Assembly (NCBI GenBank): GCA_903870175.1
Contig: CAIQBY010000391.1
Span: 1 to 34,670, forward strand
Direction of reading: 5' to 3'
DNA from: an uncultured Bacteroidota bacterium
GTDB taxonomy: Bacteria; Bacteroidota; Bacteroidia; 2-12-FULL-35-15
Length of the DNA stretch: 34,670 bases
Shown here: piece after piece, positions 29,626 to 30,132 of the stretch
How the letters are laid out: each line of letters begins with the position of its first letter
How positions within the stretch are numbered: position 1 is the first letter of the stretch
Translations under genes and position numbers: made by a program
Notes under the pieces: generated by a model
Databases searched by the model: none
What the model was told of the DNA's origin: nothing
Seen by the model: the letters and a program-made list of their open reading frames with translations, nothing else

Positions 29626-29688
29626 GGGAGCTTAGCTCAGCTGGTTCAGAGCATCCCGATTTAAATCGGGAGAAGACATTGGTTCATT
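29626..29688 (+). pseudogene. tRNA(Val-like) 5' fragment (acceptor 5' strand, D-arm, hairpin in anticodon-arm position)
   Basis: GGGAGCTTAGCTCAGCTGGTTCAGAGC is nearly identical to the intact tRNA at 29710, followed by tcccgatttaaatcggga. T-arm decayed and no matching 3' acceptor nearby. Confidence 0.8.
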
Positions 29689-29709
29689 AAATATTGATTT
29701 TATAATTTC

Positions 29710-29784
29710 GGGAGTTTAGCTCAGCTGGTTCAGAGCACCTGCCTTACAAGCAGGGGGTCACTGGTTCGAACCCAGTAACTCCCA
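29710..29784 (+). tRNA. tRNA-Val (anticodon TAC)
   Basis: Full cloverleaf: GGGAGTT/AACTCCC acceptor, CCTGC-CTTACAA-GCAGG anticodon arm, ACTGG-TTCGAAC-CCAGT T-arm, discriminator A; CCA not encoded. Confidence 0.95.
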
Positions 29785-29816
29785 CAAAAGCCTCACAAAA
29801 TTGTGGGGCTTTTTTA
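29785..29816 (+). terminator. Rho-independent terminator after tRNA-Val
   Basis: aaaagcctcacaa-aa-ttgtggggcttttttt. Confidence 0.8.
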
Positions 29817-29818
29817 TT

Positions 29819-30064
29819 ATGTTTAAAGTCTATATTCTTTATTCGGAAACAAAAAACAAATATTATGTTGGTTACACACATGATACTATTACCGAACGTA
29901 TCAGAAAGCATAATAGTAATCACAAAGGATTTACAGGTGGGATAGGAGATTGGGAAATGAAATATTCGGAAATTTTTGAAACAAATAAAGAAGCAATAAA
30001 TAGAGAAAAGCAAATAAAAGGTTGGAAAAGTAAGAAGTTGATAGAAAAATTAATTGCAAAATGA
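29819..30064 (+). CDS. GIY-YIG nuclease family protein (UPF0213/YhbQ-like)
   Basis: [56 protein letters not shown] immediately after the tRNA terminator U-run. Confidence 0.9.
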
Positions 30065-30072
30065 ATTTGAAA

Positions 30073-30132
30073 GGTTCAAAGCATCCCGACTGACAGTCGG
30101 GAGGGTCACTGGTTCGAACCCAGTAGCTCCCA
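30073..30132 (+). pseudogene. tRNA(Val-like) 3' fragment (from D-loop to discriminator base)
   Basis: ggttcaaagc-atcccgactgacagtcggga-gggtc-ACTGGTTCGAACCCAGT-AGCTCCC-A. Lacks a 5' acceptor/D-arm; AGCTCCC complements GGGAGCT at 29626. Confidence 0.82.

Follow-up and report, generated by a model that had tools for sequence, protein, structure and literature searches.

The window analyzed here is the whole 34,670-nucleotide stretch of DNA from an uncultured Bacteroidota bacterium, whose genome is available as a draft of 3.95 Mb in 423 contigs. At the locus studied, a tRNA-Val-like 5' piece, an intact tRNA-Val(TAC), a terminator, a GIY-YIG open reading frame, a tRNA-Val-like 3' piece and a second terminator follow one another on the + strand, where all of the parts of the locus described below are located. 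They are preceded by the ancestral tRNA-Val promoter region (29563–29593), which was recognized by alignment to the congener G046 and has the form TTTC-N19-TATATTTG, a promoter that we take to be of the Bacteroidota-like type. Positions 29626–29653 are identical to nucleotides 1–28 of the tRNA-Val of congeners and constitute the 5' remnant of a split tRNA-Val. The anticodon arm of this remnant is substituted by a hairpin (TCCCGATTTAAATCGGGA, 29654–29671; hairpin A), found by palindrome search and inspection of the sequence, and the unit continues into a decayed variable loop and T arm that end in GGTTCA (29672–29686). The 5' units of about 30 other loci likewise fade out within the T arm.

An A+T-rich spacer in which no promoter-like box was seen (29687–29709) leads to the intact tRNA-Val(TAC) at 29710–29785 (72.3 bits with the Rfam tRNA model), the sole tRNA reported in the locus when ARAGORN was run on the window. 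Its acceptor stem has T6-A67 where the remnants have C6-G67, a compensated change. An antisense ORF on the minus strand (29744–30013) looks like a spurious reading across this tRNA. The inner intrinsic terminator (GCCTCAC...GTGGGGC-T6, 29790–29815), which arrived with the insert, is followed by the gene of an 81-aa GIY-YIG nuclease (29819–30064; Pfam PF01541). The 3' unit begins with a D-loop/D-stem piece corresponding to nucleotides ~18–27 (30073–30083), and a second hairpin revealed by the palindrome search (TCCCGACTGACAGTCGGGA, 30084–30102; hairpin B) once again takes the place of the anticodon arm. It is completed by the 3' remnant of the split tRNA-Val (nucleotides 44–76, 30103–30134), which was delimited by alignment to the tRNA-Val of G012 and G004. 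The outer terminator (30141–30177) is of the ancestral tRNA-Val type: it can be aligned to the tRNA-Val terminator of these same two congeners, and the alignment runs on into the common flank as far as a START-domain gene. The remnants are separated by about 450 bp, occupied by the intact tRNA-Val(TAC), the additional terminator and the nuclease gene.

The original prediction had described a tRNA-Val-like gene divided into two fragments with complementary acceptor strands, with an intact tRNA-Val(TAC), a terminator and a GIY-YIG ORF between them, and all of these features were found where it had placed them. The start of the 5' fragment (29626) was right, but its end had been set too short at 29659, since the fragment continues through the hairpin and the decayed T arm to approximately 29686. 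Similarly, the 17-mer proposed as a junction common to both fragments is real and occurs exactly twice in the window (29643–29659 and 30073–30089) and in 0 of 100 shuffles, but the repeated segment is longer, extending from the D-loop through the hairpin to the variable loop. The palindrome TCCCGA-N-TCGGGA was also present exactly twice in the window, once per fragment (mean of 0.00 in shuffled sequences). Elsewhere in the window, degenerate tandem repeats with a basic period of 21 bp were noticed at 11565–11868 and 33262–33546, the latter with spurious long ORFs on both strands.

Filled and empty states of the tRNA-Val site

The split gene had been thought to be a tRNA-Val(GAC). The comparison with congeners identified it instead as tRNA-Val(TAC), for which a match was obtained in 34 of 35 congeners, mostly as one ordinary gene with a conserved promoter, tRNA and terminator. 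Relatives possess the uninterrupted tRNA, one of the two outcomes by which the original prediction was to be judged, and the outer flanks of the window align to this uninterrupted state. On the left, positions 29511–29653 align almost without gaps to the promoter and nucleotides 1–28 of the tRNA-Val(TAC) of G046, with a score of 243 for the promoter alignment vs. a maximum of 29 when shuffled sequence was aligned to congener upstream DNA. On the right, positions ~30101–30415 align in G012 to nucleotides 44–76 of the tRNA, to its terminator and to the flanking DNA that reaches the START-domain gene. This comparison of empty and filled sites is one between species, with the two flanks drawn from different congeners because in G012 and G046 the tRNA may be affected by other insertions or by the end of a contig. 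Taken together, the flank alignments indicate that the anticodon arm was the point at which a resident tRNA-Val(TAC) was interrupted.

A search for tRNAs beside the START-domain gene of congeners had first hinted that the tRNA block had been relocated. This idea was dropped after blastn placed the tRNA-Val 3' half and its terminator at the orthologous position in G012, and also in G046, at a contig end; the locus is therefore ancestral. No second Val tRNA is listed for the source genome, whose assembly is incomplete, so keeping the tRNA-Val(TAC) intact is presumably essential to the host. Decayed remnants free of the nuclease were found in G010, G018 and G041. Additionally, partial copies of tRNA-Val from nucleotide 30 on were observed in congeners (G041:C12:74007, G051:C33:18702, G023:C14:86093, G003:C26:26851 and G012:C61:12379), and these probably mark places where elements of the integrase type attach at this tRNA.

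Genes for tRNAs are common targets of integrative elements and group I introns, and the locus could be read as the footprint of an integrase-driven element or of a group I intron in the anticodon loop whose other genes were lost. The partial copies in congeners (nucleotides 30–76) would fit such an origin. The locus resembles tRNA-restoring integrative elements, such as tyrosine-integrase islands and prophages, in that an intact tRNA is regenerated and a displaced 3' part is left behind. It differs from them in its small insert of about 450 bp, in the hairpin that replaces the anticodon arm and in its remnants, which flank the intact tRNA on both sides in place of a single att-type duplication accompanied by an integrase; no integrase-sized ORF lies between the fragments. 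The group I intron was discarded, as an Rfam scan of the window returned the intact tRNA only, and the insert, with its terminator and its complete tRNA, cannot be spliced out. We consider an origin of this kind exceedingly improbable.

The nuclease and its association with tRNA genes across Bacteroidota

The 81-aa protein belongs to the GIY-YIG superfamily (PF01541, 60.7 bits with a cut-off of 22.6, E 1.7e-16), and its catalytic-type residues Y5, Y16, G18, R27, H31, E51 and E63 are present in 96–100% of 73 relatives. Purifying selection was evident in seven pairs (dN 0.03–0.20 vs. dS 0.13–2.4); some copies of the nuclease contain stops, and some loci keep the remnants only. The best matches among solved structures were UPF0213 GIY-YIG proteins (1zg2, E 9e-10; 1ywl) and SLX1 (7cq2), for which, to our knowledge, no tRNA-remnant cassette has been described. 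A phage origin was rejected, as tblastn with the window protein gave no match at E ≤ 0.01 in 50,697 phage records. Two of seven IMG/VR matches were of this nuclease type, both at contig ends, and these are likely proviral margins. A role as a defence system was also set aside, the PADLOC match being weak and partial (E 0.0044, 35 residues).

The layout of tRNA, terminator, GIY-YIG gene and hairpin-armed 3' tRNA piece, often with 5' pieces upstream, recurs at Val, Arg, Ala, Pro, Met and Asp tRNAs across Bacteroidota. The source genome itself holds a second cassette at tRNA-Met(CAT) (L003), and an identical order was found in relatives at Val, Arg(TCT), Ala and Met tRNAs. In 80 genome contigs retrieved by means of a nuclease alignment, an intact tRNA lay on the same strand no more than 350 nt upstream in 57; the nuclease was followed by a 3' tRNA piece in 49, and a 5' piece was present in 17, counts biased toward tRNA linkage by the selection of contigs for similarity to tRNA-linked nucleases. 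Several of those with no tRNA nearby were cut by a contig end or were second members of tandem arrays. In the first of two less biased surveys, a search of eight whole genomes with the general GIY-YIG model of Pfam gave 42 matches, 12 in large proteins and 30 in short ORFs. Ten of these 30 ORFs begin 4–65 nt past a tRNA on the same strand, where ~0.01 would be expected from a simple density estimate (~31 tRNAs per ~3.8 Mb), and no UvrC-sized GIY-YIG ORF started just after a tRNA among the loci examined in the same eight genomes.

In the second, at E ≤ 1e-10, the nuclease subfamily was detected in 121 of 198 genomes sampled evenly over Bacteroidota, representing 72 of 103 genera, and a tRNA lay upstream in 24 of the 29 best-scoring loci checked in this sample. 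A search with the hairpin-in-tRNA DNA motif yielded 19 matches in 14 of 396 genomes (0 with the reversed control); most of them were directly downstream of this nuclease, and all loci but one adjoin a tRNA. Presence of the cassette is patchy within one genus, at several different tRNAs, and decay and loss are frequent. The surveys bore out the expectation that GIY-YIG ORFs of this type would be flanked by partial tRNAs, the association with tRNA pieces being massive. In a few loci (L281, L287 and L293), an apparently intact tRNA was observed after, not before, the nuclease gene. Cassettes were also encountered in metagenome-assembled genomes filed under Limnohabitans, Gracilibacteria and Bifidobacterium (L095, L122 and L165), which are probably binning errors from Bacteroidota.

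The conservative alternative offered with the original prediction, an ordinary tandem tRNA duplication in which the outer copies decayed and a nuclease gene was captured by chance, agrees with the many loci that have extra tRNA copies and identical terminators. It is contradicted by the recurrence, phylum-wide and at many tRNAs, of one nuclease type and one gene order, together with a conserved, covarying hairpin whose position in the tRNA does not change, and independent decay would not put the same hairpin in place of the anticodon arm. We regard it as very unlikely.

The tRNA isotype, when mapped on the nuclease tree, required ~28 changes vs. 44.7 after shuffling, so that isotype is partly inherited; these trees rest on ~80 columns, and switches between tRNA types are seldom firmly supported. 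The source genome also has a third short GIY-YIG gene with no tRNA link (L001, G000:C23:1-2074, positions 356–574, minus strand), which is embedded in many dispersed repeat copies (CGTTTCGACTTCGCTCAACG... / ...CCCTGAGCGGAGCCGAAGGGT). In three viral contigs (L220, L221 and L223), other GIY-YIG genes lie between dispersed copies of palindromic repeats (GTCATCCCAGCGAAAGCTGGGAC; CATTGCGAGGAAGAATGACGAAGCAATCT), which suggests that the pairing of nuclease and palindrome extends past the tRNA-linked clade.

Hairpins, modules and nuclease clades

The separators between modules are tRNA segments whose anticodon arm is the hairpin; in other clades, the conserved hairpin occupies the anticodon loop or the T arm instead. 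An upstream unit consists of nucleotides 1–27, the hairpin, the variable loop, a T arm that fades out and a short spacer, and such units are sometimes arranged in tandem, with six visible copies at a period of 75–77 nt in one locus (L131). The intact tRNA, the terminator and the nuclease form the core of the cassette, whereas the downstream unit comprises the D-arm piece, the hairpin, nucleotides 44–76 and a terminator. The module repeated in tandem is made up of the tRNA 3' half, terminator, nuclease, D-arm piece and hairpin. Near-identical tandem nuclease modules were found in Chryseobacterium indologenes (L158), and equally spaced nuclease matches, 311–378 nt apart, in many genomes.

Of 90 loci, 78 have a hairpin after the nuclease, although in two of them (L152 and L156) the match is probably due to chance. 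Substitutions in the 6-bp stem of this hairpin are paired at three positions: pair 1 is T-A in 73 cases and C-G in 2, pair 2 is C-G in 67 and T-A in 8, and pair 6 is A-T in 60, C-G in 12, T-A in 2 and G-C in 2. The loop varies freely, with 59 distinct sequences in the 78 loci and a length of 3–9. This bears on the anticodon assigned to the joined fragments, which do fold in silico (ARAGORN) as a tRNA-Val(gac) with a 6-bp anticodon stem, as predicted. The GAC identity is due to chance, because the anticodon arm in both fragments is the conserved hairpin with its freely varying loop, and no tRNA-Val(GAC) is among the tRNAs listed for the incomplete assembly of the source genome.

The remnants might nonetheless be a functional RNA, either a tRNA-Val(GAC) whose halves are joined in trans or a decoy with a hairpin for an anticodon, shielding the intact tRNA from toxins that cut anticodons. 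The cloverleaf fold of the joined halves with their matched acceptor strands, the location of the 5' unit directly behind a tRNA promoter and the existence of full-length hairpin-armed tRNAs at some loci would all suit this reading. Against it, the loops vary in length and sequence, truncation, decay or interruption by a second hairpin is common among the remnants, and an intact tRNA-Val(TAC) is present. A functional split tRNA-Val(GAC) was discounted, since the loop varies freely and the split gene is that of Val(TAC), and we hold little expectation that the remnants act as RNA in either way.

The nucleases associated with tRNA-Met form one clade (98% support), in which the split point is located after the anticodon (5' piece of nucleotides 1–38) and the hairpins differ, being TCCGCC...GGCGGA in 5 of 7 loci and of a TTCTTC type in 2. 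In the tRNA-Asp cassettes (L276, L278, L282, L283, L284, L294 and L301), a TCCCG hairpin substitutes for the T arm, not the anticodon arm, and another cassette with a T-arm TCCCG hairpin (L300) has a tRNA-Gly ~410 nt upstream. These T-arm (Asp/Gly) cassettes were not recovered as one clade, and a single clade was not rejected (p-AU 0.38). The hairpin is predicted to be the site of the nuclease, a proposal for which these matched clades of nuclease, hairpin and tRNA position offer the strongest indirect evidence. In many loci, L127, L134, L139, L141, L157 and L171 among them, the 3' tRNA piece has a second TCCCG-type hairpin in its T arm, as though the hairpin were mobile in its own right.

Related systems and the proposed cassette

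No prior description of this arrangement of tRNA, GIY-YIG gene and hairpin was found in the open-access literature. The closest known system is SegB of phages T4/T6, a free-standing GIY-YIG homing endonuclease in a tRNA cluster; its cleavage sites are in tRNA genes, and the tRNA+segB segment is amplified in tandem only if the nuclease is active (PMC13096335, PMC2988022). Both systems have a free-standing GIY-YIG ORF in or beside tRNA genes of no fixed isotype, and in both the segment of tRNA and nuclease is amplified in tandem, in the case of SegB via short homologies. Unlike SegB, the cassettes reside in bacterial chromosomes, encode a protein that is little more than a catalytic domain, and split and restore the tRNA, leaving hairpin-armed remnants; nor is the nuclease of the window a close relative of SegB, in view of the phage search described above. 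Short hairpins on both sides of a nuclease gene, and possibly an action on single-stranded DNA, are shared with REP/RAYT (TnpA-REP) and IS200/IS605 elements. These differ in having an HUH tyrosine enzyme instead of GIY-YIG, in lacking the tRNA context and in lacking tandem modules; no HUH tyrosine transposase is encoded in the insert, where the only ORF with a family match is the GIY-YIG gene.

A second possible precedent is provided by the Ssn proteins, site-specific single-strand nucleases of the GIY-YIG superfamily, that of Neisseria being specific for a dispersed palindromic repeat. A small GIY-YIG protein combined with a TCCC...GGGA-type palindrome would be common to Ssn and the cassettes, but the palindrome studied here has a fixed place within the remnants of a tRNA and lies on either side of the nuclease gene in a tRNA-restoring cassette; the pairing and the clade-specific hairpins were themselves seen in the tRNA cassettes. 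The parallel raises the question of whether the nuclease serves the host. It would then be a domesticated site-specific single-strand nuclease with an influence on DNA uptake, on recombination or on the copy number of tRNAs. Its cognate palindrome would persist in tRNA remnants by circumstance, the tRNA loci being no more than a safe and well-transcribed place to reside. The conserved stem and the purifying selection on the nuclease, its carriage by most genomes and genera of the sample and the other GIY-YIG genes among dispersed palindromic repeats speak for such a role. The patchiness in one genus at several tRNAs, the frequent decay and loss, the tandem self-amplification and the tRNA-restoring layout look selfish, however, and a host-serving nuclease seems to us unlikely.

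We favor, with a probability of roughly two in three, a homing-like selfish cassette that lives inside tRNA genes and has a minimal GIY-YIG nuclease at its center. The empty and filled states of the site, the same layout at a second tRNA of the source genome, Met(CAT), the purifying selection and the tandem modules all argue for it. So do the recurrence at several tRNA types across the phylum, the association with tRNAs beyond chance in both directions of search, the paired changes of the stem, the Met clade with its own split point, the ~28 isotype changes on the nuclease tree, the decayed remnants that have lost the nuclease and the precedent of SegB. In the window, the resident tRNA-Val(TAC) was split at the anticodon arm, its outer halves remaining behind the ancestral promoter and before the ancestral-type terminator; as the insert brings a complete replacement tRNA, the host keeps a complete tRNA behind the original promoter. 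The nuclease may recognize and cut the hairpin, the tRNA gene or both, possibly in the form of single-stranded DNA that has folded. Recombinational repair via the near-universal tRNA sequences could then copy the cassette into other tRNA genes, and could also expand or delete modules, while the position of the nuclease gene downstream of the tRNA terminator would keep its expression low, through readthrough only. The original prediction of a nuclease-associated mobility or duplication that targets tRNA genes is supported in this respect, with mobility inferred from the distribution of the cassettes and their junctions. Several points weigh against the cassette model. Isotype is partly inherited and few switches between tRNA types have firm support; 3' halves and terminators are often identical within a locus, for which local duplication or gene conversion would account equally; and the intact tRNA beside the nuclease ought to be cut as well, unless cleavage is directed at the hairpin.

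More tentatively, and at somewhat less than even odds, these GIY-YIG/hairpin cassettes may represent an undescribed class of mobile element present in most genera of Bacteroidota. Such elements would use tRNA genes as universal landing pads, swap their own hairpin in for the anticodon or T arm, leave a pseudo-tRNA as a scar, restore the tRNA internally and recombine via hairpin-bearing tRNA segments with no integrase, transposase or intron.

If this interpretation is correct, a single nuclease of ~80 aa together with a hairpin has colonized essential tRNA genes in most genera of the phylum, and the family has gone unnoticed because annotators see a lone "GIY-YIG protein" beside a tRNA. It would mean that a selfish gene can occupy an essential RNA gene at little cost, and it would account for the pseudo-tRNAs and the tandem tRNA/nuclease arrays of Bacteroidota genomes. 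The family would also provide many natural pairs of nuclease and hairpin of differing specificity, and the matched clades of nuclease, hairpin and tRNA position make recognition directly testable.
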